In this document: piece after piece, positions 19,126-39,455 of the stretch
Layout of the letters: every line of letters starts with the position of its first letter
Numbering within the stretch: the stretch's first letter is position 1
Assembly: GCF_000403845.2 (NCBI RefSeq)
Contig: NZ_KE159567.1
Location: 876,911 to 940,910, forward strand
Direction of reading: 5' to 3'
Origin: Eubacterium sp. 14-2
GTDB lineage: Bacteria; Bacillota; Clostridia; Lachnospirales; Lachnospiraceae
Length of the DNA stretch: 64,000 nucleotides
Position numbers and translations under genes: made by a program
The notes under the pieces: generated by a model
Databases searched by the model: none
The model's input: only the letters and a program-made list of their open reading frames with translations
What the model was told of the DNA's origin: nothing

Positions 19126-19188
19126 GAAGTTCCGGAATGAGTCAGACCGGACAGATTATGACAGAAAGAATTGTGGGAGGAGAAAGAA

Positions 19189-20481
19189 ATGACACAGAAA
19201 CAGAAGTATGCTTCCATCAGCCATGTGTTTCAGACCGTGGAAGAAAAATTAGAAAAGTACCCCAGGATAGCTGAAATATTTCAGAACTGTTACCTCAATA
19301 CACTGGATACCACGGTGAAATCCATGGATGACGGGACCTTTTATGTGATTACAGGGGATATTCCCGCCATGTGGCTGCGGGATTCCACCGCCCAGCTGCG
19401 GCCCTTTCTTCCGGTGGCCGGAAAAGAACCGGCTCTGGGGGAAATTCTGACAGGCCTGTCAAGACGCCAGTTTCAGTATATTCAGACGGATCCCTATGCC
19501 AATGCTTTTAATGAGGCGGAGAACGGAAACTGCTGGGAACGTGATATCACGGAGCAGAACGGATGGGTATGGGAACGGAAATATGAGGTGGATTCCCTGT
19601 GTTATCCGTTGCAGCTTGCTTACCTGATCTGGAAAAATACCGGACGGGTGGACCAGTTCGATTTGTCTTTTCAGGCAGGAGCCAGAAAAATCCTGCAGGT
19701 ATTTTGCACAGAGCAGCACCATGAGGAGCGGTCGCCCTACCGCTTTATGCGGCCTGGCACATATTTCAAAGACACCCTTTCCAGGGAAGGAAAGGGAGCT
19801 CTGGTAAAATCGGGAGTCGGAATGACCTGGTCAGGATTTCGTCCCAGCGATGATGCATGTACCTATGGTTATCTCATCCCCTCAAATATGTTTGCTGTTG
19901 TGGTGCTGGGGTATCTGGAAGAAATTGCAGACATTGTTCTGAAAGACAAAGGGCTGCAAAAAGAGGCGGCCAGCCTGAAAGAAGAGATTTATCAGGGGAT
20001 AGAAACCTGGGGAGTTGTAAAGACAGAGGAGTTTGGTGAGGTGTACGCCTATGAGACAGACGGCTACGGCCAGTACAGTCTGATGGACGATGCAAATGTA
20101 CCAAGCCTGCTTTCCATGGAATATCTGGGTTACAGAGGAAACCGGAAAGAGGTTGCCGAAAATACCAGAAAGCTGATTCTGAGCGAGGCAAACCCCTTTT
20201 ACTATAAAGGCAGCAAAGGGGCCGGTATCGGAAGCTCCCATACGCCGGTAAACCATATCTGGCCCATTGCGCTGGCCATGGAGGGACTGACTGCGGAAAC
20301 AGAGGAAAGGAAACTGGAAATTCTTCGTATCCTTACGGAAACAGACGGCGGCACAGGCCTGATGCACGAGAGCTTCCATGTGAATGATGACAGAAAATAC
20401 ACCAGAGAGTGGTTTTCCTGGGCAAATGCCATGTTCAGCGAGCTGGTACTGGATTATTGCGGCTGTCCCATACTGCGCTGA
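19189..20481 (+). CDS. GH125 exo-alpha-1,6-mannosidase
   Basis: A 430-residue metal-independent alpha-mannosidase of family GH125 (DUF1237). It removes terminal alpha-1,6-linked mannose from N-glycan cores or mannan, by inversion. Family motifs: IPAMWLRDSTAQLRPF near residue 70, SDDACTYGYLIPSNMF, GIGSSHTPVNHIWPIAL and the C-terminal GTGLMHESFHVNDDRKYTRE with the catalytic acids. No signal peptide, so it works in the cytoplasm. The ATG at 19189 follows GGGAGGAGAAAG. It is first in an operon with the GH38 enzyme 111 bases downstream; the two are classically paired for high-mannose glycan degradation. Confidence 0.93.
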   Translation: MTQKQKYASISHVFQTVEEKLEKYPRIAEIFQNCYLNTLDTTVKSMDDGTFYVITGDIPAMWLRDSTAQLRPFLPVAGKEPALGEILTGLSRRQFQYIQTDPYANAFNEAENGNCWERDITEQNGWVWERKYEVDSLCYPLQLAYLIWKNTGRVDQFDLSFQAGARKILQVFCTEQHHEERSPYRFMRPGTYFKDTLSREGKGALVKSGVGMTWSGFRPSDDACTYGYLIPSNMFAVVVLGYLEEIADIVLKDKGLQKEAASLKEEIYQGIETWGVVKTEEFGEVYAYETDGYGQYSLMDDANVPSLLSMEYLGYRGNRKEVAENTRKLILSEANPFYYKGSKGAGIGSSHTPVNHIWPIALAMEGLTAETEERKLEILRILTETDGGTGLMHESFHVNDDRKYTREWFSWANAMFSELVLDYCGCPILR

Positions 20482-23500: not shown

Positions 23501-23751
23501 GTTTCCTGTCCTTTGACAACGATCAGGTAGAGCTGGACGCAGTGAAAAAATCCGAGGACGGGGCATATCTTGTAATCCGGTTCCATGAATATGCAGGCTC
23601 CCGGCAGGAAGTAACGGTGAATCCGGGCATTTCCTGGAAAGGCTGGGCTGAGGGTGATTTAAGGGAGCGGCCTGCAGGCCCCTTCAGTCAGGATGAGATT
23701 CATCTGTCCCTTCATGCCTACGAGATTAAGACCATCCTGGTGGAAGTGTGA
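20593..23751 (+). CDS. GH38 alpha-mannosidase
   Basis: A 1052-residue retaining, zinc-dependent alpha-mannosidase, of normal length. An N-terminal accessory region of ~255 residues leads into the catalytic domain at YCVGHTHIDVAWLWRLKHT (zinc ligands His and Asp). The nucleophile is D374 in WLPDVFGYSWALPQ. Then come the three-helix region, FHDIIPGSSIHEVYED with a further zinc histidine, and the C-terminal beta-sandwich. Such cytoplasmic enzymes hydrolyse alpha-1,2/1,3/1,6 mannosides of imported N-glycan fragments. GGAGGAAGGC lies before the ATG. It works with GH125 and the GH2 beta-mannosidase of the same locus. Confidence 0.95.
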   Translation: MFLTDRKLEQRISEAEQYRYRDVTPLKNFEAAEERQGVVNPKLPVFSAGHVSGDAEFAGDREDWYTLETGDTWKGRDKYLWLHREVEIPAEWKGKKILGIFDFGNTGAGNNSGFESMLYVNGNMYQGVDVNHKEVFLDDSLCGTSVDLTFRLWSGLEGGGVPKEQEHRIARADLAWLDEKADDFYYLASMVWQTIKELDSSSPIQHMLRKSLDSACHCIDWSRPGSEMFYESLHQADDYLNESIDGMEKDSMINVYCVGHTHIDVAWLWRLKHTREKCSRSFSTVFRLMELYPEYIFLQTQPQLYEYMKQEFPEIYENIRRKVKEGRWEVDGGMWVEADCNLTSGESLTRQILIGSKFIKDEFDREVEYLWLPDVFGYSWALPQILKKAGIHTFMTTKISWNQYNRMPHDTFWWKGIDGSEILTHFITTPEPWNEPGSWFYTYNGKLLPSTVKGVWDAYSEKQVNQDLLISFGFGDGGGGVNRDMLEYRRRMDKIPGLPNLKMSTAGEYFRRLHDNVEDTDQYVHTWDGELYLEYHRGTYTSQGYNKRMNRKMELFYRKAEWMTVMAALKKGNLAESRQEKLTEGWKHILTNQFHDIIPGSSIHEVYEDSRKDYGLIEKIAADVVQEACETLLTPEENTYTVFNDSGWTVSQIVSVPAETDGICRDEDGNELVSQKGQGVIYVEVKDVPSMGTKTIILEEKKKDVPKAVFSVHGREIETPFYQISINQYGQIGKLFDKTCGRHVLPEGQRGNVLQVFEDKPLGNDAWDIDIFYQEKMREITELTTFEITEMGPLTMIIHMEWSYMDSCIRQDMVLYSTSPRIDFRTNVEFHEQHQLLKAAFPVDVRSTYGTYDVQYGNVRRPNHWNTSWDQAKFETVAHRWADLSERNYGVSILNDCKYGHDIKDNVMRISLLRAGTHPDHLQDQGEHTFTYALLPHKGDFVEGAVVKEAFALNEPMEVLAGKSSLPCDSFLSFDNDQVELDAVKKSEDGAYLVIRFHEYAGSRQEVTVNPGISWKGWAEGDLRERPAGPFSQDEIHLSLHAYEIKTILVEV

Positions 23752-24553: not shown

Positions 24554-26311
24554 ATGGAAATAAAAACATCAGGACAGTTATACAGCAAATTATTATATAT
24601 TGATACGGCAATTTTGTGCTGTGTGGTACTGGTAATGGGCATTTCCTTTTTTACCAGCACCAGAAACCGGTTTCTGGAACAGAACCTGAATTATATGGGA
24701 ATGATGAGCGAATCTGCCAACGCCTATCTGGAAGAAACCTCTGATATTGCGGAGTATATTCATGAGGATCTGTACAAGTCAAATATGGAATTAAACGACG
24801 GGCTCCATTATCTCACAGACGGGCCGGCGGCTTATCAGCAGTATCGGCTGGATACCTATATTGAAAGCAAAATCAGTGTTTACAAAGGCATTGAAACTTT
24901 TTTCCTGGACGCTTTCCAGGCTTATCAGAGCCTGCACCGCATTATGCTTTACAGTTATGACAGAGGGGTGCTCACAGAATATACCAGGGACGGAAAAGGC
25001 TACCGAAGGTACGGGGATAAAACATTTCTGGAGCATCTGGAGCAGGGGAGCCTGGTGGAGGAAGACTGCTTTTTCTATATAAAAGAAATACGCGACCCCA
25101 TCAACATGCAGGTGAAGGGCTGTATGCTTCTGGGATTCCAGGGCAGTAAATTTGAACGTATCCGGCAGTATTATTCCAGAGCGGAACTGATGGTATACAG
25201 TGACGGAGGAACCATGGTTTTTGATTCCACCGGCAAAAATAAAATAAGTAAAATCATGGCTGAAGAGGAGGCGGGAACACTGGAGCATTTTTTAAATGCT
25301 TATACGGAACAGACCAGAACAGGCCGGTACCACACCGTCAGCTATCTGGAAAAAAGCCGGGCGTCCGCAGTACCGGTACCTGTTATTCTGATGATTCTCA
25401 CCATAGGACTGGCGGTGCTGATTCTGGGAGAAGTATTTGTGCGGTACCACCTGCAGCGCCTTGCAAAAAGGCTGGACCGGATACTGGACGGAATGACAAA
25501 GGTAATGGAGGGGGATCTGAACGTGCGTATTCCCTCTGACCGAAACGGAGACGAGCTGGACGTAATTTCCCGGTATTTCAATGAGATGTGCGTCAGGCTG
25601 GATGATCATATCAGGAAGCGGTATCTGGCGGAAATCGAACAGCAGAATGCGGAGATGGCGGCCCTTCAGAGCCAGATAAACCCTCATTTTCTGTATAATA
25701 CCCTGGAGGCCATACGAATGAAAGCCATCTGCAACGGGGACCGGGAGGTGGGGAAAATGCTTTACAGCCTGGCTGTAACCTTCCGTGCACAGATTAAGGA
25801 AGCAGATGTAATTACACTGGCCCAGGAACTTCACTACAGCAGGAAATATATAGAGCTGTTTGAGTATCGTTATCCGGGACAGTTTCAGACTGTTGTGGAA
25901 TGTCCGGAGGAATATCTTAAGACGCCTGTGATTAAATTTGTACTGCAGCCCATTATTGAAAATTATTTTATCCATGGAATCCGGATGAAAGAAAAAGATA
26001 ATTTTATCCGGATTTCCGTTGAGAAAGAAGAAACATTCCGGATTGTGGTGGAAGATAACGGAAACGGAATGACAAAAGAGGAACTGGCAGTAAAGAACAG
26101 GGAACTGGAAGACGACATTATGGAAAAGCAGGCCTCCATTGGCGTTGCGAATGTGAACCGGAGGCTTAAGGCTGTCTACGGCAAAGAATATGGGATTCAT
26201 ATGGAAGCCGGAACCGGAGGAGGACTGCGGGTAATTCTGCGGTTTCAGCCGGGGGAAACTCCTGGCGAGGAACTCCCTGATGAGGAAGCCGGGGAAGAAG
26301 TGGAGAACTGA
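24554..26311 (+). CDS. YesM-type sensor histidine kinase
   Basis: A 585-residue membrane kinase. TM1 at ~11-32, an extracellular sensor region of ~240 residues, TM2 at ~273-295, HAMP at ~297-350, then the His_kinase domain with LQSQINPHFLYNTLEAIR (phosphoacceptor His ~377) and an HATPase domain (EDNGNGM, IGVANVNRRLKAVYG). This is the YesM/LytS-like group that phosphorylates AraC-type response regulators. The partner regulator starts 35 bases downstream. In this locus it should sense an extracellular oligosaccharide or the importer's binding protein. Confidence 0.93.
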   Translation: MEIKTSGQLYSKLLYIDTAILCCVVLVMGISFFTSTRNRFLEQNLNYMGMMSESANAYLEETSDIAEYIHEDLYKSNMELNDGLHYLTDGPAAYQQYRLDTYIESKISVYKGIETFFLDAFQAYQSLHRIMLYSYDRGVLTEYTRDGKGYRRYGDKTFLEHLEQGSLVEEDCFFYIKEIRDPINMQVKGCMLLGFQGSKFERIRQYYSRAELMVYSDGGTMVFDSTGKNKISKIMAEEEAGTLEHFLNAYTEQTRTGRYHTVSYLEKSRASAVPVPVILMILTIGLAVLILGEVFVRYHLQRLAKRLDRILDGMTKVMEGDLNVRIPSDRNGDELDVISRYFNEMCVRLDDHIRKRYLAEIEQQNAEMAALQSQINPHFLYNTLEAIRMKAICNGDREVGKMLYSLAVTFRAQIKEADVITLAQELHYSRKYIELFEYRYPGQFQTVVECPEEYLKTPVIKFVLQPIIENYFIHGIRMKEKDNFIRISVEKEETFRIVVEDNGNGMTKEELAVKNRELEDDIMEKQASIGVANVNRRLKAVYGKEYGIHMEAGTGGGLRVILRFQPGETPGEELPDEEAGEEVEN

Positions 26312-26346
26312 GGGATTTTTACATCTTAAAAGCGGAGGATGGAAGG

Positions 26347-27861
26347 ATGAAGAAGGTAATGATCGTGGAAGACGAGGAACTGATTTTACAGGGAATCCGG
26401 AATATTCTGGACTGGGAATCTCTGGGCCTTGAGGTGGTGCATATGGCTCACGACGGTGTGGAGGCCCTGGAAATGTGGGAAAAGGAACCGGTCCACATTG
26501 TGGTTACAGATATCAGTATGCCGGAAATGGACGGGCTGGAGCTGCTCCGCAAAATCAGGGAAAAAGAAGAGCAGGTGCGTTTCATCATTCTGACCGGATA
26601 TGATGAATTTAATTACGCAAGAGAGGCCATTCGTCTGGAAGTGGAAAACTATATCCTGAAACCCATCGACGAGGAGGAACTGGAACGCCAGCTTAGGGAA
26701 ACTGTGGAAAAACTGGATGAGATGGACCGGAAAAAGATTCAGTACATTGATGAAAAAACACAGTGGATGCACTTTTTAAGAGGCGGGGCAGAGGAAGGAG
26801 AGTACCGGCAGTATGCAAAAATGCTGGGGCTCTCTGCCGACTGCGGAACGTATTATGCGGCCCTGATGAAATGGAATATGGATGGCCTGAAGGAGAAAAA
26901 AATATCAGATGTGATCGTGGAACTGAAACAGGAAGAAAAACTGAAAATTGTCCATCTGCCGCCGGACAGCCTGCTGATGGTGCTGGAAGGGGAAACCATG
27001 GATGAGACAGAAGTGCAGGACTATTTCTCAGAGCTTCAGAATCAGGTGGAAAGCAGGTTTAATGTGATGACCTTTCTCTGTATCGGACCTTCTTTTCAGA
27101 GCTTTTCCCAGCTTCCGGAAAGTTACCGGATGGCCGGAAAGCTCCAGAAATATCTGATTCTGGAAGGGTACGGAACGTGTATCAGCCAGCGGCAGATTCA
27201 GAACAGGAAAACCGAAGCCCTCAGTATGGATGAAACGCTGCTCAGAAAATTTATTCTGAAAAAAGAAACGGAAGCGGCAGTGGGCTACATGGAAGATCTG
27301 TTTATCAATAATATACGGGGAGATGCTTCCGCAGGCTCTCTGTATCAGATGGCAGTAAAAATGGCCATGCTGCTGCAGGAAATAAAAAAAGAATACAAGC
27401 TGGAATCAGGCAATTTTCAGGACATAACCGATTTGATTGAGACCATTTTCCGGGCGGACGATATTTATGGAATCCGGACAGCCTTTGTCTCGGAAATCAC
27501 GGAGATTATCGCCTGTATGCATGAAGAGGATTCCCAGTACACTCCAGTGGTGCGTCAGATTATTGCTGAAGTACAGCAAAATTACAAAGAGGATATGAAT
27601 CTGAAAACCCTGGCTTATAAATACCATATGAATGCGTCCTATCTGGGACAGATTTTTCAGAAGGAAGTGGGGTGTTCCTTTGCCCGCTATTTAAGCAATA
27701 CCAAAAACGGAATTGCAAAGGAGCTGATTTTGAATACAAACATGAAAATCAATGATATTGCAAGGCAGGTGGGGTATCCGGATACCAGTTATTTTTACCG
27801 GAAATTCAAGCAGTGTTATGGGGTGTCTCCGGCTTCTCTGCGGGAGATGAAAAAATATTAG
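26347..27861 (+). CDS. YesN-type response regulator with AraC output
   Basis: A 504-residue regulator. The receiver domain (1-~120) has the acidic pair (VEDEEL), phospho-acceptor D55 in VTDISMPEMDG and the conserved LTGYDEFNYA and ILKPIDEEEL. A middle domain of ~260 residues is of unknown fold. The last ~100 residues carry two AraC helix-turn-helix motifs (NLKTLAYKYHMNASYLGQIF; KINDIARQVGYPDTSYFYRK). It pairs with the kinase upstream and likely activates the mannosidase and importer promoters. A terminator follows. Confidence 0.93.
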   Translation: MKKVMIVEDEELILQGIRNILDWESLGLEVVHMAHDGVEALEMWEKEPVHIVVTDISMPEMDGLELLRKIREKEEQVRFIILTGYDEFNYAREAIRLEVENYILKPIDEEELERQLRETVEKLDEMDRKKIQYIDEKTQWMHFLRGGAEEGEYRQYAKMLGLSADCGTYYAALMKWNMDGLKEKKISDVIVELKQEEKLKIVHLPPDSLLMVLEGETMDETEVQDYFSELQNQVESRFNVMTFLCIGPSFQSFSQLPESYRMAGKLQKYLILEGYGTCISQRQIQNRKTEALSMDETLLRKFILKKETEAAVGYMEDLFINNIRGDASAGSLYQMAVKMAMLLQEIKKEYKLESGNFQDITDLIETIFRADDIYGIRTAFVSEITEIIACMHEEDSQYTPVVRQIIAEVQQNYKEDMNLKTLAYKYHMNASYLGQIFQKEVGCSFARYLSNTKNGIAKELILNTNMKINDIARQVGYPDTSYFYRKFKQCYGVSPASLREMKKY

Positions 27862-27881
27862 AAAAAATATGTGGTTTCACT

Positions 27882-27932
27882 GGCTTTTGCCCGAGCGTGT
27901 GTTTTTACATCAGAGGGCAGAAGCCTTTTTTT
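27882..27932 (+). terminator. Rho-independent terminator of the two-component operon
   Basis: GGCTTTTGCCC (27882-27892) pairs with GGGCAGAAGCC (27915-27925), followed by seven T. Confidence 0.85.
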
Positions 27933-27985
27933 ATCTTATAAAAAACATAACTGTAATTTGTGCAATGAACCTAAAAGTTTTCAAC

Positions 27986-28014
27986 TTTCCATGCAAATTC
28001 CACAATGATATAGT
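27986..28014 (+). promoter_or_regulatory. Putative promoter of the mannoside importer operon
   Basis: TTTCCA (27986-27991), 17 bases, TATAGT (28009-28014), 77 bases before the first permease. The -35 is weak, in keeping with activation by the YesN protein. Confidence 0.5.
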
Positions 28015-28090
28015 AAATATACCAAAAAACATACTGCATATTGACGAACCGGTAAGGAAATATGCAGGAAACAAAGAAGGAGGTTTCAAA

Positions 28091-29053
28091 GTGAAAGCAA
28101 ACAAAAAAAAGGCTGTAAAGCCGAAAGGAAATTTTGTAAGCCGGTTGAAAGCAAATAAGGAACTGCTGGTCTTAAGTATGCCGGGCGCAATCTGGTTTCT
28201 GTTTTTTGCGTATCTTCCATTATTTGGAATCCTGGTGGCCTTTAAGAAGTTCCGGTTGTCCGGGGACGGATTTTTCTACAACCTGTTTACCAGCGAGACG
28301 GTCTGGTTTGACAATTTCAAGTTCCTGTTCAGCAGCGGAGACGCCTTTATAATTGTAAGGAACACCGTGTTGTATAACGCAGCATTTATCGTTCTGGGCG
28401 TGGTGATACCGGTAATCCTGGCGTTGCTGCTGAATGAAATCAGGAATAAAGGGATGATGAAAATTTATCAGAGCTCCATGTTCCTGCCCTACTTCCTGTC
28501 CTGGGTAGTGGTAAGCTACTGCGTTTTTGCATTCCTGAATCCGGAAAAGGGATATTTTAATGCAATTATACAGCAGTTCGGCGGAGAACCGATTTCCTGG
28601 TATGCAGAGACAAAATACTGGCCCTTTATCATTATCTTCATGAGCCAGTGGAAGGGAATGGGCTACAACACCGTGGTTTATCTGGCGTCCATCTGCGGTA
28701 TTGACAAAACATACTATGAAGCGGCAGTGCTGGACGGAGCCACCAAATGGCAGCAGATTAAGTACATTACGCTGCCTCTGTTAAAACCGGTCATTACCAT
28801 TCTGCTGATTATGGCAGTAGGAGGAATTTTCAAAGCGGACTTCGGCCTGTTTTATCAGCTGCCCAAGAACTCCGGGCCTCTGTATCCTGTGACAAATGTA
28901 CTTGATACATACATTTTCCGGGCCCTTAAGACCAGCGGAGAAATCGGAATGAGCGCGGCGGCCGCACTGTTTCAGTCAACGGTTGGTTTTGTCCTGATTA
29001 TGATTGCTAATAAAATCGTATCAAAAGTGGACAATGAAAATGCATTATTCTGA
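28091..29053 (+). CDS. ABC sugar importer permease (LplB type)
   Basis: A 320-residue permease with six membrane helices; the EAA loop is read as YYEAAVLDGATKWQQIKYITLPLL, where it meets the ATPase. The family (LplB/UgpA-like) imports oligosaccharides. The start is GTG after AAGGAGGTTTC; upstream in-frame codons would include promoter sequence. It is the first gene of the importer operon; the second permease follows after 16 bases. No ATPase gene is in the operon, so a shared MsmX-type ATPase elsewhere is expected. Confidence 0.92.
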   Translation: MKANKKKAVKPKGNFVSRLKANKELLVLSMPGAIWFLFFAYLPLFGILVAFKKFRLSGDGFFYNLFTSETVWFDNFKFLFSSGDAFIIVRNTVLYNAAFIVLGVVIPVILALLLNEIRNKGMMKIYQSSMFLPYFLSWVVVSYCVFAFLNPEKGYFNAIIQQFGGEPISWYAETKYWPFIIIFMSQWKGMGYNTVVYLASICGIDKTYYEAAVLDGATKWQQIKYITLPLLKPVITILLIMAVGGIFKADFGLFYQLPKNSGPLYPVTNVLDTYIFRALKTSGEIGMSAAAALFQSTVGFVLIMIANKIVSKVDNENALF

Positions 29054-29069
29054 GAAGGGAGGGAAAATC

Positions 29070-30032
29070 ATGTCTGACAAAAAAATATCCAGAAGGAAAA
29101 TAGAGAAGCAAATCCGGGCGATTGAGGCGGAAGGATGTAAATATAACCAGATTAAGAAGCCCACAAATGTGCTGTTCAACATATTTCTGGCAGTCCTGTC
29201 TCTGATTTGCGTGATTCCGTTTATATTCGTTATCATTATTTCCATTACGGACGAGGAATCACTGGCCATGAACGGATACCGGTTTATTCCGGAAAAATTC
29301 AGTCTGTATGCCTACGAGTATATAGTAAGCGCAGGTGAGAATATTCTGAGAAGCTATGGCGTGACCATTCTTGTGACGATTCTCGGAACATTGATCGGAC
29401 TGCTTCTGACAGGTACCTATGCCTATACCCTGTCCAGAAAAAATTATGCCTGCCGGAAATTTTTTACCACAGTCATCACCATTCCCATGCTGTTCAGCGG
29501 AGGTATGATTGCCAACTATCTGATTGTCACAAAGGTAATGATGTTAAAGGATACCATATGGGCGCTGATCCTGCCCCTCTGCCTGAATTCTTTTAATATT
29601 ATTGTGCTGAGGACCTTTTTTAAGACCAGTATTCCGGATGCGGTAGTGGAATCCGCCAAAATTGACGGAGCTTCAGAGTGGCGGCTGTTTTTCCAGATAG
29701 TTATTCCCATGGCGCTGCCGGGACTTGCCACCATTGGGCTGTTCCTGACACTGGGCTACTGGAACGACTGGTTTAACGCCATGATGTACATGGACAACAA
29801 AGATCTGATACCACTGCAGTATCTGCTGATTCAGATTGAAAGCTCCATTGACTGGCTGGCCAACAACAAGGCTACCATGGGAGTAGACGGTATTGCGGTG
29901 GCGGCGAATATGCCGAAAGAAACCATTAAAATGGCAATTGTGGTAATATCCACATTACCCATTATCTTTGCTTATCCGTTTTTCCAGAGATACTTTGTAA
30001 ATGGATTGACGGTAGGGGCTGTGAAGGAGTAA
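29070..30032 (+). CDS. ABC sugar importer permease (LplC/YtcP type)
   Basis: A 320-residue permease, partner of the preceding gene. A charged cytoplasmic head (~40 residues) leads to six helices; the EAA loop is VVESAKIDGASEWRLFFQIVIPMALP. The C-terminus FFQRYFVNGLTVGAVKE is the standard end of this family. GAAGGGAGGG precedes the ATG at 29070. The lipoprotein gene follows after 22 bases. Confidence 0.93.
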   Translation: MSDKKISRRKIEKQIRAIEAEGCKYNQIKKPTNVLFNIFLAVLSLICVIPFIFVIIISITDEESLAMNGYRFIPEKFSLYAYEYIVSAGENILRSYGVTILVTILGTLIGLLLTGTYAYTLSRKNYACRKFFTTVITIPMLFSGGMIANYLIVTKVMMLKDTIWALILPLCLNSFNIIVLRTFFKTSIPDAVVESAKIDGASEWRLFFQIVIPMALPGLATIGLFLTLGYWNDWFNAMMYMDNKDLIPLQYLLIQIESSIDWLANNKATMGVDGIAVAANMPKETIKMAIVVISTLPIIFAYPFFQRYFVNGLTVGAVKE

Positions 30033-30054: not shown

Positions 30055-31539
30055 ATGAAATTCAGAAAATTTGTATCACTTGGCCTTGCGGCAGTTATGG
30101 CAGCGGGACTGCTTGCCGGCTGCGGCGGAAAGAAAGAAACCAATTCCAGCGGAGAAGAAGTGGTGGAACTGACCTGGTGGCAGATTGGAGACGCTCAGAA
30201 AGACCAGGAAAAGGTGCTGGAGAAAGTCAATGAATATACCCAGGAAAAAATAGGGGTAAAACTGAAAATCAATACCGCCGGATGGGGCGATTACAACCAG
30301 AAAATGCAGGTAGTGGTAAATACCGGAGACGACTGGGATCTGTGCTTTACCTGCTCCTGGGCCAACAATTATTTCCAGAATGCTGACAAGGGCGCATTCC
30401 TTGCCCTTGATGATTATATTAAAGACACAGAGATGTACAAAACCATTGACAGCCGGTTCTGGGAGGCAGCCAAAGTACAGGGCAAGACCTACGGTGTCCC
30501 CAGTGAAAAAGAAATCGGCAGTATGCCCATGTGGGTGTTTACCAAAGAATATGTGGACAAATACAATGTTCCGGTAGACGAAATCCACAGCCTGGAAGAT
30601 CTGGAACCCTGGCTGAAACTGATTCATGAAAATGAACCGGATGTGGTGCCCATGTACTTAACCAGCAGCTATTCCGCACCCATCTATATGGATTTGATTC
30701 AGGATCCGGTGGGCATTGAATACGGCGATGACAGCCTTACCGTTAAAAATGTATTTGAAACAGAGAAAATGAAATCCACACTGGATACCATGCGGAAATA
30801 TTATCTGGCAGGTTACATCAACAAGGACGCTGCCACCGCTTCTGATGACAAGTCCATCAAACGTTTTGTAACAAAAGGCGATGGCCAGCCCTATGCAGAA
30901 CTGGTATGGGGCAAAGACCTGGGATATGAAGTGGTTGCAACACCCATTATGGATACTTATGTGACAAACATCTCCGCACGGGGCGCTCTGACCGCAGTGA
31001 ACGCTCAGACCAAACATCCGGAAAAAGCAGTGGAATTTCTGAATCTGGTTAATACAGACGAATATCTGAGAAATCTTCTGAACTATGGAATCGAAGGCGA
31101 GCACTGGGACAAAGTGGAGATTCCGGAAGAAGAGGCAAAAGCGGCGGAAGGCAAACCTTACGTTTATGAAAATAAAATCAAACTGAATGAAGAAACCAGG
31201 AAAAATTACTCGGTTTCCTACTGGGTACAGGGCGGTCTGTTTAATACCTATGTACTGGAAAATGAACCTGTGGACAAATGGGCAACTTTTAAAGAATTTA
31301 ACGATTCTTCTGTGGAAGCTCCCTCTTTTGGATTCGATTTTGATCTGAATCCGGTCAGCACGGAAGTGGCAGGATTTGGAAATGTCATGGATGAATTTGG
31401 AAAATCTCTGTTTACCGGAAGCGTGGATCCGGAAGAATATCTGCCCAAACTGCAGGAAAAACTGAAAGCCACCGGCATTGACAAAGTAATTGAAGAAATG
31501 CAGAAACAGATTGACGAGTGGAAGGCAGCAAAAGAATAA
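30055..31539 (+). CDS. Sugar-binding lipoprotein of the mannoside importer
   Basis: A 494-residue extracellular solute-binding protein. Signal peptide with lipobox LLAGCGGK (lipidated Cys at ~24). The body is a type-I sugar-binding fold (ELTWWQIGDAQKDQEKVLEK; GDDWDLCFTCSWANN), and the last ~130 residues fit the DUF3502 extension typical of LplA/YtcQ-like proteins. It captures oligosaccharide at the cell surface and delivers it to the two permeases. AAGGAGGAG precedes the ATG. A strong hairpin follows the gene, probably raising its mRNA relative to downstream genes. Confidence 0.93.
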   Translation: MKFRKFVSLGLAAVMAAGLLAGCGGKKETNSSGEEVVELTWWQIGDAQKDQEKVLEKVNEYTQEKIGVKLKINTAGWGDYNQKMQVVVNTGDDWDLCFTCSWANNYFQNADKGAFLALDDYIKDTEMYKTIDSRFWEAAKVQGKTYGVPSEKEIGSMPMWVFTKEYVDKYNVPVDEIHSLEDLEPWLKLIHENEPDVVPMYLTSSYSAPIYMDLIQDPVGIEYGDDSLTVKNVFETEKMKSTLDTMRKYYLAGYINKDAATASDDKSIKRFVTKGDGQPYAELVWGKDLGYEVVATPIMDTYVTNISARGALTAVNAQTKHPEKAVEFLNLVNTDEYLRNLLNYGIEGEHWDKVEIPEEEAKAAEGKPYVYENKIKLNEETRKNYSVSYWVQGGLFNTYVLENEPVDKWATFKEFNDSSVEAPSFGFDFDLNPVSTEVAGFGNVMDEFGKSLFTGSVDPEEYLPKLQEKLKATGIDKVIEEMQKQIDEWKAAKE

Positions 31540-31656: not shown

Positions 31657-32403
31657 ATGAAAAGAAAGCTGGAAGTATGTGTGGATTCTGTGGAATCTGC
31701 GGTAATTGCTCAGGAGGCAGGAGCGGATTGTCTGGAAGTATGTGCAAATCTTTTGATCGGCGGGACGACGCCGGGGGTCAGCCAGTTCAGACAGATCCGT
31801 GAAAGGTGCAGGATTCCTCTGCATGTGCTGATTCGTCCGAGATTCGGGGATTTTCTGTATACAGATGAGGAATTTCAGATGCTGGAAGAGGACATCTGTA
31901 TGTTCCGGGAACTGGGAGCAGAGGGCGTTGTAGTGGGATGCCTGAAGCCGGAGGGAGACCTTGATACGGACAGAATGAGACGGTTAAAAGCATGTGCAGG
32001 CCCATTGCGGATGACGCTGCACCGGGCCTTTGACGTTTGCCGGGATCCATATCAGACACTGGAAGAAGCTGTTTCCCTGGGGATTGACACCATCCTCACT
32101 TCCGGTCAGGCCCCTGTCTGCATGGAAGGAAAAGAAGTATTGAGAAAACTTCTTGCGCAGGCTAAGGGCCGGATTGAGATTCTTTTGGGCAGCGGTGTAA
32201 ATGATGGGGTAATCCGCAGTATGACAGAAGAACTTCATGCAGCCAGCTTTCACATGTCCGGAAAAAAAACACTGGACAGCGGAATGATTTACCGAAACGG
32301 GCGGGTACATATGGGACTTCCTGCGTTCAGCGAATTTGAAATTCTGCGCACGGACAGAGAGGAAATCAGAAAAGCCCGGCAGGCACTGGATGAGGTAATG
32401 TGA
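31657..32403 (+). CDS. cutC: CutC family protein
   Basis: A 248-residue TIM-barrel protein of the CutC family. Conserved features: LEVCVDSVESAVIAQEAGAD at the start, ANLLIGGTTPG, LIRPRFGDFLY, TLHRAFDVCRDP and ILTSGQAP. The family is named for copper tolerance, but its biochemical activity is not settled. Its place inside a glycan operon, between the binding protein and a transglutaminase-fold protein, points to a role in sugar or glycopeptide metabolism here. AGGTGG precedes the ATG. Confidence 0.88.
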   Translation: MKRKLEVCVDSVESAVIAQEAGADCLEVCANLLIGGTTPGVSQFRQIRERCRIPLHVLIRPRFGDFLYTDEEFQMLEEDICMFRELGAEGVVVGCLKPEGDLDTDRMRRLKACAGPLRMTLHRAFDVCRDPYQTLEEAVSLGIDTILTSGQAPVCMEGKEVLRKLLAQAKGRIEILLGSGVNDGVIRSMTEELHAASFHMSGKKTLDSGMIYRNGRVHMGLPAFSEFEILRTDREEIRKARQALDEVM

Positions 32404-32419: not shown

Positions 32420-34960
32420 ATGTTTTCAAAAACACTGTGGGAATATGTCGGAAGGCAATATGACAGCCGTCTCTGGCAGATGGGAAGTTTAAAAGATGAA
32501 ATCTGCAGGAAAATGGAAGGATGTACACCAGAGGAACAGCTTCTGATGAAATTTTTTTATGGAACCATGCCATTGCGTGATATGGGAGAATATGAGTTCG
32601 AACTGTTTCTGGCTTTTGTCCGCCACGGACTTATGCTGCGTGAGACAGCAGAGTGGTGCCGGCAGCTTCCGGAGGAAATATTTTTGCATAATGTCCTGTA
32701 CTATCGGATTAATTCGGAAAATATTGAGGACTGCCGGCCTTTCTTTTATGAACAGCTCAGGGAGCGGATACAGGGAAAGACCATGGAAGAGGCAGTGCTG
32801 GAGATAAACTACTGGTGTGCGGAAAATGGGACATACGAGGCTTCTGATTTCAGGACCATATCCCCTCTGACCATGTACCGGTCCGGAGCGGGCAGGTGCG
32901 GGGAGGAATCTACCTTTGCGGTAACAGCTTTCCGCAGTGTGGGAATTCCTGCAAGACAGGTGTATACGCCCAGATGGGCGCACTGTGACGATAATCATGC
33001 CTGGGTGGAGGTTTATGTGGATGGAGACTGGCATTTTCTGGGAGCGTGTGAGCCGGAAGCAGTGCTGGATAAAGGATGGTTTTCCAATGCTTCCTCCAGA
33101 ACCATGATGGTTCACGCAAGGGAATTTTCAGATTACGGCAACCAGGAATCCTGTTTCCGGCAGGGAGAAATGCCCTGCTATAACAATGTAACGTTCCGGT
33201 ATACGGAAACCGTAGAATTTAAGATAAAGGTGACAGAGCCGGACGGCACTCCGGCAGAATATGCCAGAGTCTTTCTGGAACTTCTGAACAGCGCCGAGTA
33301 TGGCAGTATGGCGGTGCTGACAGCAGATGAGGACGGAACTGCGGCATTGCGCACAGGAATGGGAACCGTTCACCTGTGGGCAGTCCGGGGAGAAAAAACA
33401 GCGGAAGCACTGATTGATACCAGGCAGCAGGATAAGGTTCTGCTTACTCTGACAGAAGAACAGGGCCGTACTGGCGTCTGGACAGATATTGACATAAAGG
33501 CGCCTGAGGAACAGATACCTGGCAGGACTGTTCCCACCAGAGAGCAGAAAGCCAGGAACCGCCAGCGGATTCAGGCAGCGGCAGTTCTGCGGGCGGAAAG
33601 GATACGCAGTTATTACAGAGAAGAACTGGCAGAAAAATATCCGAAGGAACAGGAACTTCTGCGCCTTGCAGCAGGAAATTTTGACCAGGTGTACCAGTTC
33701 CTTGCAAAGGATGACAACCCGGACCGGGCAGGTCTTTTGCACAGCCTGAGCAGGAAAGATTACAGAGATGTCAGGGCAGATGTGCTGGAACATCATTTGC
33801 AGTATGCGGGAAAATACCGTTCTGAATGGGAAGAAAAGGGGAAACCTGATGTGTATGAAAAGTACATTCTCTGTCCGAGGATATTTTATGAAGAACTGAC
33901 CTGTTACAGGCAGGAGCTTTCCGGGTATTTCAGTGAAGAAGAAAAAGAACGTTTCCGGGAACATCCAAAGACCCTCTGGAATTATATCCAGGAACACATT
34001 CATTACGAGGAAGCATATGATTACAGGACGATTTTTTCCACGCCCCTGGGTACGATGAAACTCCGGTTTGGCAACCTTATGAGCCGGAAAATCCTGTGTG
34101 GGGCTATTCTGCGCACCCTGGGAGTTCCGGCCCGTATCAGCCAGGCAGAACAGGAAGTGGAAGTTTATCAGGAAGATAAGTTTGTGAAAATATCAGGAAC
34201 CGGGGAGGAAGAGAAATCATCGGAGCGGGTAACCCTTACCCTGAAACGGAAACCGGAAGAGAACTGGAACTATTATCAGAACTGGACCATCGGACAGTTT
34301 CAGCAGGGAAATTTTGTCACCCTGGATTATCAGGGACTGGAGTTTGATACGCTGGAACAGAAGCTGGAACTGGAGCCTGGATCCTACCGGATACTCACTG
34401 CAAACCGGCTGCCAGGAGGAGACCAGCTTGCAGCGGAATACAGATTCTGTCTGGAGCCGGGATGTCCTGGAGAAGTGGAATTATATATGCGTGCCGGACA
34501 GCCGGAGGAGCTGCTGGTATCAAGACAGCTGGATGATTTTGAACTCCGGGAGGAGGGCGGCATGACCACTGCTTCTGCGCTGACTGCCCAGGGCGTACAT
34601 ATTCTGGCATTTCTGGAACCGGGGGAAGAACCCACAGAGCATGTACTGAATGAAATGTATCAGCTTCGGGAAAGTTTCCGGGCCATGGAGACGGGAATCT
34701 GTTTTGTGGTGCGGGATGAGCACATACAGAAAACCCCGGCTTTCTGGCAGGTGACAGAGGCATTTCCGGAAATAAAAGTGGTTGCCGGAGATTTTGACGA
34801 ACTGACGGAACCCCTGGCACGGAGAATGTATACGGATCCGGAAAAACTTCCGCTGCTGCTGATTGTAAATCCGGGATTGCAGGCAGTTTACGGAAGCAGC
34901 GGCTATCAGGCCGGGAGCGTGAGCCTGATGCTGGAACTGCTGAAAGTAAACGGAAAATGA
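32420..34960 (+). CDS. Transglutaminase-fold protein with PNGase-like motifs
   Basis: An 846-residue cytoplasmic protein, no signal peptide. A transglutaminase-like core spans ~130-215: GRCGEESTFAV (Cys ~160), VGIPARQVYTPRW, then DDNHAWVEVYVDGDWHFLGACEPE (His ~193). This order resembles eukaryotic peptide:N-glycanase (GRCGEW, HxWxEVY, ACE), but the third catalytic Asp expected just before ACE reads Gly. A beta-sandwich-like region follows (~265-370). A second, degenerate core lies near ~530-580 (SRKILCGAILRTLGVPARIS), and a possible thioredoxin-like region is at the C-terminus. Position among mannosidases suggests action on imported glycopeptides, for example removing the N-glycan from Asn or trimming peptide. 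The activity is unproven. Confidence 0.75.
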   Translation: MFSKTLWEYVGRQYDSRLWQMGSLKDEICRKMEGCTPEEQLLMKFFYGTMPLRDMGEYEFELFLAFVRHGLMLRETAEWCRQLPEEIFLHNVLYYRINSENIEDCRPFFYEQLRERIQGKTMEEAVLEINYWCAENGTYEASDFRTISPLTMYRSGAGRCGEESTFAVTAFRSVGIPARQVYTPRWAHCDDNHAWVEVYVDGDWHFLGACEPEAVLDKGWFSNASSRTMMVHAREFSDYGNQESCFRQGEMPCYNNVTFRYTETVEFKIKVTEPDGTPAEYARVFLELLNSAEYGSMAVLTADEDGTAALRTGMGTVHLWAVRGEKTAEALIDTRQQDKVLLTLTEEQGRTGVWTDIDIKAPEEQIPGRTVPTREQKARNRQRIQAAAVLRAERIRSYYREELAEKYPKEQELLRLAAGNFDQVYQFLAKDDNPDRAGLLHSLSRKDYRDVRADVLEHHLQYAGKYRSEWEEKGKPDVYEKYILCPRIFYEELTCYRQELSGYFSEEEKERFREHPKTLWNYIQEHIHYEEAYDYRTIFSTPLGTMKLRFGNLMSRKILCGAILRTLGVPARISQAEQEVEVYQEDKFVKISGTGEEEKSSERVTLTLKRKPEENWNYYQNWTIGQFQQGNFVTLDYQGLEFDTLEQKLELEPGSYRILTANRLPGGDQLAAEYRFCLEPGCPGEVELYMRAGQPEELLVSRQLDDFELREEGGMTTASALTAQGVHILAFLEPGEEPTEHVLNEMYQLRESFRAMETGICFVVRDEHIQKTPAFWQVTEAFPEIKVVAGDFDELTEPLARRMYTDPEKLPLLLIVNPGLQAVYGSSGYQAGSVSLMLELLKVNGK

Positions 34961-35068: not shown

Positions 35069-36148
35069 TTGTATTGGAAAGGTGAAATCACGGAAACCAT
35101 GGAGAAGAAAAATTTACTCAGCCATGTGGGAACCATGCAGCAGCTTATGTATGCACGCCCGGTAACTTATGAAGAGGGCAGAGCCAGGGGCATGAAAGCA
35201 TATCAGGTGAAAAACGGCCCGCTGGAATTTACGGTGATGGCAGACAAATGTATGGACATTGCAGAAGCATCCTTTCAGGGGCATAATATCAGTTTTCTGT
35301 CAAAACCAGGGCTGATGGGCAGAAATCATTTTGATACCGGAGGGGAAGAAGCCCAACGCAGTATTATGGGCGGTCTTCTGTTTACCTGCGGCCTTGAGAA
35401 TATCGGTGCGCCCTGCAGGATAGAAGGAAAAGATTATCCCATGCACGGAAGGATACGCACCACGCCGGCAGAGCATGTGGGAGCAGACGCCTGCTGGAAG
35501 GGAGAAGATTATACGCTGACCTTAACCGGAGAACTCCGGGAGGCGGAGCTGTTCGGAGAAAATCTTGTGCTTAGGAGGAAAATTACCACCGTATACGGAG
35601 AACACAGGATTTGTATTGAAGACAGGATTTCCAATGAGGGATTCCGGACGGAGCCCATGATGCTGCTGTATCATATCAATGTGGGATATCCTTTCTTATC
35701 TGAAAAATCCAGGATTGTGCTGCCCACCCGAAAGGTGCAGCCCAGGGATGGAGTTTCGGCCGCCCATATCCAGGATTACAGTAAAATGGAGCCCCCCAGG
35801 GATAATGAGACGGAATATGTATTTCTTCATGAAATGGCGGCAGATTCAGAGGGAAATACCTTTGGGGCGGTGCTCAATGAAGAACTGGGAACTGGCCTGA
35901 AAATAGAATACAATCTGAACGAACTGCCGTATTTCATGCAGTGGAAATCCATTGCATCCGGGGACTATGTGGTGGGCCTTGAGCCTGCCAACTCCAGTGT
36001 GTACGGAAGAACGTACCATTTCAGAGAACACAGCCTGCACACACTGAAACCTCTGGAAACGGAAGTTACACATCTTACCCTGAAGTTTCTGACAGGGGCG
36101 GAACTGGAGCAGGTAAAAGAAGAGGCGAATAAACTGCTGGAAACCTGA
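35069..36148 (+). CDS. DUF4432 aldose epimerase-like protein
   Basis: A 359-residue galactose-mutarotase-fold protein, DUF4432. Typical stretches: GRARGMKAYQVKNGPLEFTV, DKCMDIAEASFQGHNISFLS, GGLLFTCGLENIGAPC, PMHGRIRTTPAEHV and LEPANSSVYGR. Catalytic-type His residues are in MHGRI and the LLYHINVGYPF motif. It may interconvert anomers of a sugar released in this locus, for example mannose. The start is most likely TTG at 35069 (AGGAA 11 bases before), because homologous sequence (YWKGEIT) precedes the first ATG. The upstream tandem repeats lie in its leader. Confidence 0.8.
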   Translation: MYWKGEITETMEKKNLLSHVGTMQQLMYARPVTYEEGRARGMKAYQVKNGPLEFTVMADKCMDIAEASFQGHNISFLSKPGLMGRNHFDTGGEEAQRSIMGGLLFTCGLENIGAPCRIEGKDYPMHGRIRTTPAEHVGADACWKGEDYTLTLTGELREAELFGENLVLRRKITTVYGEHRICIEDRISNEGFRTEPMMLLYHINVGYPFLSEKSRIVLPTRKVQPRDGVSAAHIQDYSKMEPPRDNETEYVFLHEMAADSEGNTFGAVLNEELGTGLKIEYNLNELPYFMQWKSIASGDYVVGLEPANSSVYGRTYHFREHSLHTLKPLETEVTHLTLKFLTGAELEQVKEEANKLLET

Positions 36149-36217: not shown

Positions 36218-36898
36218 ATGAAACGTTCAAAAATAAATGCGGAAATCAGACATATGGAAGAAATCATTCAGGCACATGGATTTGAAATTCCGCCCTTTTG
36301 CAAATGGTCGGCAGAGGACTGGAAGACAAAAGGGGCAGAATACAATGAAATCCGGGACAATATGCTGGGATGGGATATTACGGATTACGGGCTCGGAAAA
36401 TTTGATGAAGTGGGATTTTCCCTGATTACCATCCGCAACGGTAATCTGAAAATGGATCAGTACACCAAAACCTATGCGGAAAAACTCCTCCTTGTGAAAG
36501 AAGGACAGATGGCGCCCATGCATTTTCACTGGAATAAAATGGAAGACATTATCAACCGGGGAGGCGGAAATGTACTGATTACCGTTTACAATTCCACGGA
36601 AGACGGAAAGTTTGCGGATACGGACGTGACGGTCAACTGCGACGGACGGGAATTTACGGTTCCGGCAGGTACAAAAGTAAAGCTGACGCTGGGAGAAAGC
36701 ATTACCATTTATCCATACATGTATCATGATTTCCATGTGGAGGAAGGAAGCGGAGACGTGCTTCTGGGAGAAGTGTCCATGTGCAACGATGACGAAAACG
36801 ATAACCGTTTTTATGAGCCCATCGGACGGTTCCCGGAGATTGAGGAAGATGAAGCGCCCTACCGCCTGTTGTGCAACGAATATCCGAAAGCAGAGTGA
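36218..36898 (+). CDS. D-lyxose/D-mannose isomerase-like cupin
   Basis: A 226-residue cupin of the D-lyxose ketol-isomerase family. Motifs: GLITIRNGN-type strand (GFSLITIRNGNLKM), metal ligands in MHFHWNKMEDIINRGGG and YMYHDFHVEEGSG. Family members interconvert D-lyxose and D-xylulose and, with the same stereochemistry, D-mannose and D-fructose. In a mannosidase operon the likely job is free mannose to fructose in the cytoplasm; no mannose-specific kinase or phosphomannose isomerase is nearby. AGGAGAGG precedes the ATG; the beta-mannosidase starts 14 bases downstream. Confidence 0.87.
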   Translation: MKRSKINAEIRHMEEIIQAHGFEIPPFCKWSAEDWKTKGAEYNEIRDNMLGWDITDYGLGKFDEVGFSLITIRNGNLKMDQYTKTYAEKLLLVKEGQMAPMHFHWNKMEDIINRGGGNVLITVYNSTEDGKFADTDVTVNCDGREFTVPAGTKVKLTLGESITIYPYMYHDFHVEEGSGDVLLGEVSMCNDDENDNRFYEPIGRFPEIEEDEAPYRLLCNEYPKAE

Positions 36899-36912
36899 GA
36901 AGGAGAACCGCA

Positions 36913-39420
36913 TTGATACAGCAGAAATTAAATAATAACTGGCAGATGCACGGGCCGGGGGAACCCTTAAGGCCCGCAGCTGTTCCGGGGACGGTCTATA
37001 CGGATCTGCTGCGCAGGGGGGAGATGGAAGACCCTTTCTGGAAAGACAATGAAATCCGTGCGCTGTCCCTGATGGAAAAAGATTATGAGTATGTGACGTG
37101 TTTTGACGCGGAAAAAGAACTGCTGGCCAGCAGCAGAATTCTGCTCCGTTTTGACGGGCTGGACACCATTGCTGATATTTATCTCAACGGTACCCAGGTG
37201 GGGGCGGCATATAATATGCACCGTATCTGGGAATACGATGTGACCCATATCCTGAAAGAGACAGGAAATGAGCTGAAAGTCCTCCTTCATTCCCCCCTTA
37301 AATTTATCCGGGATGCATTTGCAGAATGCAGGACCCTTGGCTCCGAAGACGCCATGGACGGCTTTGTCCACATCCGGAAAGCCCACTGTATGTTTGGCTG
37401 GGACTGGGGCGCCCACCTGCCGGACGCAGGTATTTTCAGGGAAGTAACTTTGCTGGGTATCACCGGCGCCAGACTGGACAGCGTCTATATCCGGCAGGAG
37501 CATACGGACGGAGAGGTCAGCCTGCAGTTTCAGGTGGAAGCAGAACGGGAACAGGCAGTATCAGCCCATGGCTGTGCTGTGGAAAAAATCTCTGTGAAAA
37601 ACTCCGGTGGGGATGAAAATCCCGGCAGCCCAGGGGTTGCTTATACGGTGGAACTCACCACGCCGGAAGGGGAAACCCGGACATATTTCGATTCTCCGGC
37701 AGAAATTCATATTACCAGTCCCAGTCTCTGGTGGCCTAACGGGTATGGAGAGCAGCCTCTTTATCAGGTAAAAGTAACGTTGTATGCAGAAGGGACTGCT
37801 GTTGATGTGTGGGAAAGAAAAATCGGTCTTCGCACCCTTACCGTGAAAACAGAAAAGGACGAATGGGGCGTGGGATTTGCCCATGAAATCAACGACATTA
37901 CCATATTTGCCATGGGGGCCGACTATATTCCGGAGGACCATCTGCTGGGCCGGGTAACGCCGGATACCACCAGAAAGCTGCTGGAACAGTGTGTGGCGGC
38001 AAATTATAATGCCGTCCGGGTGTGGGGCGGCGGATATTATCCGGAAGACTGGTTTTATGATATCTGTGACGAGCTGGGGCTGATTGTCTGGCAGGACTTT
38101 ATGTTTGCCTGTGCCGTTTATGAACTGACGCCGGAATTTAAGGAAAATATCCGTCAGGAATTTGTGGATAATGTAAAACGCCTCCGCCACCATCCCTCTC
38201 TGGGCCTGTGGTGCGGCAATAATGAGATGGAAATGTTTGTGGAAGAAGGACATCACTGGGTTACGAAAAAGACAGAGGTGCGGGACTATATCCTCATGTA
38301 TGAGCAGCTGATCCCGGAGGTGCTTAAGATACACGATCCCCAGACCTTTTACTGGCCTGCAAGCCCTTCTTCCGGAGGAGCTTTTGATGAGCCGAACAGC
38401 CCGGACAGAGGAGATGTGCATTACTGGAGCGTGTGGCATGGAAACAGGCCTTTTTCCGAATATCGGAAATACTTTTTCCGCTATGCGTCAGAATTTGGCT
38501 TCCAGTCCCTGCCTGCCAGAAAAACACTGGAAACCATCACCGACGATCCCAGGGATATGAACCTGTTTTCCTATGTGATGGAAAAGCACCAGAGACAGTA
38601 CGGGGCCAATGGAAAAATCATGAATTATCTCCAGCAGACCTATCTCTATCCTTCGGATTTTAATACGTTAATCTATGCGTCCCAGCTTCTGCAGGCTGAC
38701 GCCATCCGGTATGGGGTGGAGCATTTCCGGAGAAACCGGGGCCGCTGCATGGGAGCCATTGTCTGGCAGCTAAACGACTGCTGGCCGGTGATTTCCTGGT
38801 CCTCCATTGATTACTGCGGCCGCTGGAAGGCTCTGCATTATATGGAAAAACGGTTTTTTGCACCTCTGATGATTTCCTGTCAGGAAGAGGGAATGATGAC
38901 AAAGGAAGCCGATATGAACCGGGAGCATTTTGTATTTGAAAAGTCCATCCGCTTAAATGTTGCAAATGAGACCAGAGCAGACCAGCAGGTGGAGGTATTC
39001 TGGGAAGTAAGAAATGCCGCGGCAGAGGTTCTCAGAAGGGGTGAAATCCGTCAGGTGCATGTTCCGGCCCTTACCAGTGTCTGGCTTGAGAAAGTGATGC
39101 TGCCGGAAACGGACATATTTTCAGAGTATGTGAGTTTTGGAATGAGACAGAACGGAAAAGTCATATCTGAGGGAACCGTGATTTTCTCTTATCCCAAATA
39201 CTTCCGCTATGAAAATCCCCGCCTTTCCTTCCGGCTGGAAGAGGACGAAATCATAATATCCGCAGACGCTTATGCAAAAAGCGTGGAAATACGGAATGAA
39301 CAGGAAGACTTCATTCTTTCGGATAATTATTTTGACATGAACGCAGGAGAGAAGCGGGTAAAAATTCTTTCCGGAGAGCCTCAGGGAATCCGGTTGAGAA
39401 GCGTGTATGATATCAGGTAA
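36913..39420 (+). CDS. GH2 beta-mannosidase
   Basis: An 835-residue cytoplasmic GH2 beta-mannosidase. Sugar-binding and sandwich domains (GTVYTDLLRRGEMEDPFW; LRFDGLDTIADIYLNG; MFGWDWGAHLPDAGI) precede the TIM barrel. Acid/base E438 is in LWCGNNEME and nucleophile E527 in RYASEFGFQSLP, 89 residues apart as usual. WGGGYYPEDWFYDICDELGL is a family block. It would cleave the Man-beta-1,4-GlcNAc core linkage left after alpha-mannose removal, or mannan disaccharides. The start is TTG at 36913 after AAGGAGAA; no ATG is suitably placed. It is last in the operon. Confidence 0.93.
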   Translation: MIQQKLNNNWQMHGPGEPLRPAAVPGTVYTDLLRRGEMEDPFWKDNEIRALSLMEKDYEYVTCFDAEKELLASSRILLRFDGLDTIADIYLNGTQVGAAYNMHRIWEYDVTHILKETGNELKVLLHSPLKFIRDAFAECRTLGSEDAMDGFVHIRKAHCMFGWDWGAHLPDAGIFREVTLLGITGARLDSVYIRQEHTDGEVSLQFQVEAEREQAVSAHGCAVEKISVKNSGGDENPGSPGVAYTVELTTPEGETRTYFDSPAEIHITSPSLWWPNGYGEQPLYQVKVTLYAEGTAVDVWERKIGLRTLTVKTEKDEWGVGFAHEINDITIFAMGADYIPEDHLLGRVTPDTTRKLLEQCVAANYNAVRVWGGGYYPEDWFYDICDELGLIVWQDFMFACAVYELTPEFKENIRQEFVDNVKRLRHHPSLGLWCGNNEMEMFVEEGHHWVTKKTEVRDYILMYEQLIPEVLKIHDPQTFYWPASPSSGGAFDEPNSPDRGDVHYWSVWHGNRPFSEYRKYFFRYASEFGFQSLPARKTLETITDDPRDMNLFSYVMEKHQRQYGANGKIMNYLQQTYLYPSDFNTLIYASQLLQADAIRYGVEHFRRNRGRCMGAIVWQLNDCWPVISWSSIDYCGRWKALHYMEKRFFAPLMISCQEEGMMTKEADMNREHFVFEKSIRLNVANETRADQQVEVFWEVRNAAAEVLRRGEIRQVHVPALTSVWLEKVMLPETDIFSEYVSFGMRQNGKVISEGTVIFSYPKYFRYENPRLSFRLEEDEIIISADAYAKSVEIRNEQEDFILSDNYFDMNAGEKRVKILSGEPQGIRLRSVYDIR

Positions 39421-39425
39421 AATCT

Positions 39426-39455
39426 GCCGGTATTCAGTTGAATACCGGCTTTTTT
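39426..39455 (+). terminator. Rho-independent terminator of the mannoside operon
   Basis: GCCGGTATTC (39426-39435), loop AGTT, GAATACCGGC (39440-39449), six T. A perfect ten-pair stem. Confidence 0.93.

Follow-up and report, generated by a model that had tools for sequence, protein, structure and literature searches.

A transglutaminase-fold protein encoded beside CutC in Eubacterium sp. 14-2 is a predicted counterpart of glycosylasparaginase

Eukaryotic-type peptide:N-glycanase (PNGase, EC 3.5.1.52) carries two CxxC zinc motifs, and glycosylasparaginase (PF01112) is an Ntn hydrolase, whose fold is unrelated to that of the protein described here. The CutC family is conserved from bacteria to humans, and in human cells it shares the cytosol with NGLY1, a PNGase that makes glycosylamines. 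Some bacteria use glycosylasparaginase to free the sugar from asparagine, as in L. casei, where the alf-2 genes listed in the part of the paper drawn on here (a permease, the GH29 enzyme AlfC, the peptidase PepV, the glycosylasparaginase AsnA2 and the kinase SugK) degrade fucosyl-GlcNAc-Asn; the authors describe the decay of 1-amino-GlcNAc in this pathway as non-enzymatic (PMC6960285).

We analysed a stretch of 64,000 nucleotides from Eubacterium sp. 14-2 (the window), which encodes a transglutaminase-fold protein of 846 aa with an ATG start (TG; Table 1). A preliminary description had recognised in TG the motif order of PNGase, and the motifs are indeed there: GRCGEE (C160), VGIPAR, NHAWVEV (H193) and GACEPE all occur. 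The TG family has no specific name in Pfam or NCBIfam, and 589 matching stretches were found. We aligned the window protein with 80 loci, the best-scoring 80 of these 589 relatives, and with a second copy in L072. The results showed that C160, H193, G208 and E211 were each present in 82/82 rows, as were the stretches RCGEES and HCDDNHAW, in contrast to a degenerate second core in the same protein. When the alignment was widened to 94 rows, both C160 and H193 were again invariant (94/94 each), and G208 was found in 92/94; the two rows without it fit L098 and L099, short Persicobacter outliers whose cores read differently and contain neither GRCGEE nor GACE. The third triad residue, Asp or Asn at its usual place in the transglutaminase-like superfamily, is absent from TG and G208 stands there instead. 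HMMER alignments placed the W-x-x-x-G of TG on the W-x-x-x-D of mouse PNGase, yeast PNGase and 3isr, which bears out the earlier remark that Gly replaces the third catalytic Asp of PNGase. As this Gly occurs in all 82 rows, it is a fixed trait of the TG family and not a sign of decay. C160 and H193 are the candidate nucleophile and general base, and another residue would stand in for Asp.

Table 1. Features of the window (nucleotide positions) and domains of TG (residues)
Feature	Position	Strand	Basis or remark
GH125 family protein (alpha-mannosidase)	19171..20481	+	Upstream of TG
GH38 family protein (alpha-mannosidase)	20593..23751	+	Upstream of TG
Histidine kinase and AraC-type response regulator	24554..27861	+	
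Two ABC importer permeases	27869..30032	+	
Solute-binding protein (SBP_bac_8/SBP_bac_1, DUF3502)	30055..31539	+	
CutC (PF03932; 'copper homeostasis' by annotation), putative partner of TG in one pathway	31657..32403	+	Co-occurrence, L087 fusion
TG, transglutaminase-fold protein	32420..34960	+	Pfam, AlphaFold2 model, Foldseek, profile searches
C160-G161 codons, nucleophile candidate	32897..32902	+	C160 82/82; 94/94 with distant rows
H193 codon, general base candidate	32996..32998	+	82/82; 94/94 with distant rows
G208-A209-C210-E211 codons; Gly at PNGase Asp position, Glu common to PNGase	33041..33052	+	82/82; alignment to PNGases
DUF4432 protein	35069..36148	+	
D-lyxose/D-mannose isomerase family	36218..36898	+	Below NCBIfam cut-off
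GH2 protein with mannosidase-type Ig domains (beta-mannosidase-like)	36871..39420	+	
Terminator-like hairpin 3' of GH2	39426..39449	+	
TG N-terminal helical domain	residues 1-110		Model
TG core	residues 113-230		Model and Pfam
TG Ig-like domain	residues 266-343		Model and profile
TG helical region	between Ig-like domain and degenerate second core		Model
TG degenerate second core	residues about 497-600		Model and second Pfam stretch
TG beta domain	after second core		Model
TG C-terminal thioredoxin-like domain without CxxC	residues about 720-846		Foldseek/profile searches

Transglut_core (PF01841) matched TG in two stretches, including residues 113-204 (E=1.2e-24, well beyond chance), and its score of 87.1 bits passes the curated cut-off of 23. 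The AlphaFold2 model of full-length TG, built with 62 aligned sequences, was confident (mean pLDDT 91.7, pTM 0.89), and the domain borders were set on it by eye. A degenerate second core, already noticed in the preliminary description, is supported by the second Pfam stretch and by the order of helices and strands at 542-590; an ungapped reading of the alignment puts L or P at its expected Cys position. There is no CxxC anywhere in the window protein, and at least two CxxC motifs were found in 2/93 TG loci. A crude hydropathy check detected no signal peptide in TG, in agreement with the cytoplasmic location assigned to it before, and on this basis extracellular action in the window's organism was rejected. 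The N-terminus of a Bacteroidota relative (L100) looked lipoprotein-like by eye. The window's genome gave no further TG match at E<=1.

A profile of the TG core alone, built from 71 rows, matched 3isr (3.5e-5), mouse PNGase 2f4m (1.9e-4), yeast PNGase 1x3w (1.7e-3) and 3esw (2e-3) in the PDB. Foldseek with a model of the core (69 rows, pLDDT 88.9) ranked 3isr first (5e-7) and mouse PNGase next (1.5e-5), with yeast PNGase at rank 10 (3.8e-4). PNGases were thus among the top matches, but first place went to 3isr, a putative cysteine protease from Cytophaga hutchinsonii and the closest solved transglutaminase-like core; its function is 'putative' by title, and it keeps Asp where TG has Gly. Query TM-scores for the 3isr and PNGase matches were modest (0.35-0.48), so PNGase counts among the nearest superfamily kin of TG and the match is not an identity. 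The Foldseek list also includes a Bacillus cereus N-acetyltransferase titled with a Cys-His-Glu site, which is a precedent for a different third catalytic residue. Outside the core, the Ig-like domain matches 3e8v over residues 270-347 (profile E=9e-17), a Bacteroides fragilis transglutaminase-family entry that is probably a fragment of a TG relative; it covers only an 82-residue non-catalytic domain.

Cytosolic PNGase (Png1/NGLY1; 2f4m, 1x3w, 3esw) shares the transglutaminase fold with TG and acts on the bond proposed for it, and the mouse enzyme aligns with the TG motifs GRCGE, R-x-x-G-x-x-x-R, H-x-W-x-E and C-E. However, with Gly at the place of the catalytic Asp the Cys-His-Asp triad is incomplete in TG, which also lacks the CxxC pair, has large extra domains, is bacterial and is encoded beside catabolic genes. 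Membership of the PNGase family was rejected for want of the catalytic Asp and the CxxC motifs. The PF01112 profile found no match on TG up to E=1, nor did the PNGase F profiles (PF09112/PF09113). TG belongs to neither known amidase family.

In the window, the genes on the + strand follow the order permeases, solute-binding protein, CutC, TG, DUF4432, isomerase and GH2, with 16 bp between CutC and the TG start, and the hairpin behind GH2 is the sole intergenic terminator-like match on this strand. GH125 and GH38 lie near TG on the same strand, as had been described. Searches of the window's genome found no GH29 and no M17, only four incomplete GH18 matches at a great distance from the window, and no PF01112 glycosylasparaginase up to 1e-10; the last agrees with the earlier remark that a GlcNAc-Asn step is otherwise missing here.

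We examined whether this gene setting recurs among the relatives. Among the best 80 of the 589 relatives, GH2, DUF4432 and the isomerase were each near TG in 6/80, GH38 in 3/80 and GH125 in 2/80. Mannosidases are thus rare near TG relatives, an outcome that the preliminary description had itself named as speaking against its proposal, so the mannosidase setting is local and the operon argument used before is weak; a simple role in a mannosidase operon was rejected on the same ground. Recurrent partners were identified by BLAST labels within 10 kb of TG, with cluster representatives named via Pfam, in 93 loci (94 examined, L070 left out; L098, L099 and loci with flanks below 10 kb included). 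CutC was found at 43 of the 93, an undercount that misses examples at L002 and L008 as well as the CutC part of the L087 fusion; it was followed by SBP_bac_5 (21), OppC (21), OppB (20), DeoR (20), M17 (18), GH29 (18) and GH18 (12), and GH38 was undercounted in this set by the coverage filter. Most copies share the strand of TG (CutC 42/43, M17 18/18, GH18 12/12, GH29 18/20). One GH18 and one GH29 were compared with solved structures: the GH18 of L083 was nearest to the N-acetylglucosaminidase 6inx and the GH29 of L092 to 6gn6.

Individual loci illustrate the range of arrangements. The order is M17-CutC-GH29-TG in L092 and GH18-M17-GH29-TG in L088, where a CBM9 domain is fused to TG, and in L100 (Phocaeicola) CutC and GH29 converge on TG. 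Among the four distant TG proteins of a phylum-wide sample, two adjoin GH38, one GH18 and one a CBM9 protein. Importer, fucosidase, peptidase and putative amidase gene kinds occur together in L044, L057 and L072; the window combines importer, mannosidases and TG. None of the main partners was found at 21/93 loci, although L087 with its fused CutC, L084/L085 with a partial GH38, and loci on short contigs are counted among them. In L096 (Parabacteroides), neither CutC nor an N-glycan gene is among the 13 annotated neighbours of TG. A quickly built tree of 92 rows, several of its branches long and with no shuffled control, required a minimum of 15 changes for CutC (over 73 scored rows), 10 for M17 (63) and 8 for GH29 (64), numbers that are inflated by missed neighbours. 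These repeated gains or losses indicate that TG and its partners are not one inherited block.

CutC, directly upstream of TG and absent from the preliminary description, is the most informative neighbour. In 299 genomes from 298 genera of the window's family, Lachnospiraceae, TG was present in 36 and CutC in 73; CutC occurred in 33/36 genomes with TG compared with 40/263 without it (P = 3e-20 by Fisher test, which here and below takes genomes as independent). CutC lies within 5 kb of TG in 20/36 genomes, including the window's, and lies farther away or is missing in 16/36, being absent in 3; the sole CutC carries a stop codon in genomes G467 and G479. At L087 (G390; 6066-9218), CutC and TG form a single reading frame 1050 codons long, and the fusion keeps the core RCGEES/NHAWVE/GACEP intact. 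Locus L131 (G577:C24) has a window-like operon (SBP, CutC, DUF4432, isomerase, GH2) without TG. In the phylum-wide sample (n=299), TG was found in 5 genomes, 2/5 of them with CutC (P = 0.07).

Glycosylasparaginase, for which the same bond is proposed as for TG (AsnA2 of L. casei, AGA of Hymenobacter), also has CutC as a neighbour in several genomes, in a similar kind of cluster. PF01112 was present in 7/299 genomes of the family sample, 6/7 with CutC (P = 1e-3), and four of these genomes carry CutC within 2 kb and no TG. In the phylum sample it was present in 10/299, with CutC in 7/10 (P = 2e-6), within 5 kb in 5, and with TG in none. On three Hymenobacter plasmids the glycosylasparaginase and CutC genes overlap, with GH92 nearby. 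TG and glycosylasparaginase may therefore be alternatives beside CutC; their avoidance of each other in the family sample is not significant (P = 0.6), with G566 as the only genome that holds both. Among the 40 CutC genomes without TG, 5 have PF01112 and 35 have neither amidase, so CutC must serve other routes too. At L101-L103 and L143-L146, glycosylasparaginase and CutC cluster with genes that by eye resemble PTS components, so that glyco-asparagine might be taken up there through a PTS. A single PNGase F was identified, in the Persicobacter cluster of L098 (4997-10011), which also encodes CutC and a remote transglutaminase-like protein with a differing core.

CutC also keeps such company away from TG. 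Nine annotated plasmid regions around CutC were chosen from 67 matching records, and 8/9 contain amino-sugar genes (glycosylasparaginase, ROK kinase, nagA, nagB, GH20 or murQ), the exception being from Parabacteroides; murQ is the neighbour at L156. CutC annotated 'copper homeostasis' was seen amid amino-sugar genes at L095 and L153-L159, on plasmids of Alphaproteobacteria and Bacteroidota. In 14 of 40 CutC regions read by eye, what we take to be a GlcNAc-type PTS adjoins CutC in L125, L127, L142 and L152, nagA and nagB presumably lie near it in L147, and the neighbours in L118 and L122 look unrelated. In E. coli, the copper-sensitive phenotype of cutC mutants has been traced entirely to the MicL RNA (PMC6538781). 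In a computed Xanthomonas network, VirK was joined with CutC, an asparaginase and the Nix N-glycan enzyme, and no function beyond copper is proposed for CutC in the corresponding part of that paper (PMC5700972). Among open PMC papers, we found no publication that links TG-like proteins, CutC, N-glycans and amino sugars in the way proposed below.

On balance, we lean towards reading TG as a PNGase- or glycosylasparaginase-like intracellular amidase for imported N-glycopeptides or glyco-asparagine, and CutC as an amino-sugar enzyme; the substrate and chemistry of TG and the reaction of CutC are proposals from genomic context and homology. TG would hydrolyse the GlcNAc-Asn amide bond of these compounds inside the cell, at a Cys160-His193 site on the transglutaminase fold by the Cys-His thioester route of the superfamily. 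The products would be a glycosylamine that ends in GlcNAc and either Asp or an Asp-peptide. In the window, its substrate would be an oligomannosyl-GlcNAc-Asn species left after trimming by GH125, GH38 and GH2. For many of the relatives we envisage uptake through importers of the dipeptide or sugar type, after which a GH29 fucosidase, a GH18 N-acetylglucosaminidase and an M17 aminopeptidase would trim the substrate; the aminopeptidases and dipeptide importers fit both free glyco-asparagine and short glycopeptides. CutC would work on the amino-sugar product, perhaps converting the glycosylamine to GlcNAc and ammonia.

The L. casei cluster is the nearest precedent. As far as its genes are listed in the part of PMC6960285 used here, alf-2 and several TG loci share an importer, GH29, a peptidase and a sugar kinase, with TG in the place of AsnA2 and CutC added; alf-2 has an MFS permease, whereas the TG loci have an ABC importer, and its listed genes include no CutC. 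From this precedent and the similar parts in TG loci we propose the sequence of import, trimming, amide cleavage by TG and CutC-aided use of the amino sugar. TG is accordingly predicted to be a transglutaminase-fold counterpart of glycosylasparaginase, and its spread-out family may fill the amide-cleavage gap in bacteria without that enzyme. The evidence also ties CutC, a widespread orphan protein, to amino-sugar metabolism, which makes its function directly testable. The earlier proposal that TG releases N-glycans from Asn is partly supported and appears right in direction, for reasons other than the mannosidase operon: the CutC link, the glycosylasparaginase-CutC pairs, the GH29, M17, GH18 and dipeptide-importer neighbours and the PNGase matches in the PDB speak for it, while the operon argument and membership of the PNGase family fell away. 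A wider claim, put forward tentatively and doubtful as a whole, is that TG and CutC form a conserved module that frees and uses the Asn-linked GlcNAc of N-glycans, in which TG is a new non-homologous glycosylasparaginase/PNGase with a Cys-His site without Asp, and CutC, mislabelled 'copper homeostasis', is the enzyme that acts next, on the GlcNAc-amine set free or on the 6-phosphate of this amine. A partnership of this type (NGLY1 and CutC) might exist in the human cytosol too.

Other activities were weighed against this amidase. Imported glycopeptides could be trimmed by TG acting as a cysteine peptidase or isopeptidase, with the GlcNAc-Asn bond left to another enzyme. The best sequence and fold match of the TG core is a putative cysteine protease, and frequent neighbours of TG include dipeptide-type importers and M17 aminopeptidases, but PNGases stand directly behind 3isr in the sequence search with the C-E motif in common, glycosylasparaginase occupies the place of TG in some CutC loci, and the window's genome yielded no PF01112 that could do the cutting; we consider the peptidase unlikely. 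It is less likely still that TG acts on another amino-sugar amide, such as muropeptides in cell-wall recycling. Dipeptide importers can carry muropeptides, CutC is also found near murQ, GH20 and nagA/nagB, and GH3 adjoins TG in L090; however, TG has GH29, GH38, GH125 and GH2 in its surroundings and the glycosylasparaginase-CutC pairs have GH92 close by, which points to N-glycans and not murein.

The replacement of Asp by Gly could also mean a loss of catalysis, leaving TG as a pseudoenzyme or binding scaffold. The invariant G208, the loss of Cys from the second core and the thioredoxin-like domain without CxxC are compatible with this, but the unbroken conservation of C160, H193, RCGEES and HCDDNHAW in the first core, beside a second core that has degenerated, argues for a working site, and we regard the scaffold as very unlikely.

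Elsewhere in the window, two neighbouring GH94-type proteins are encoded on the - strand at 49638-54772, the second with a much weaker match, and a GH3 protein at 58550-61117 has its C-terminal-type domain ahead of its N-terminal-type domain.
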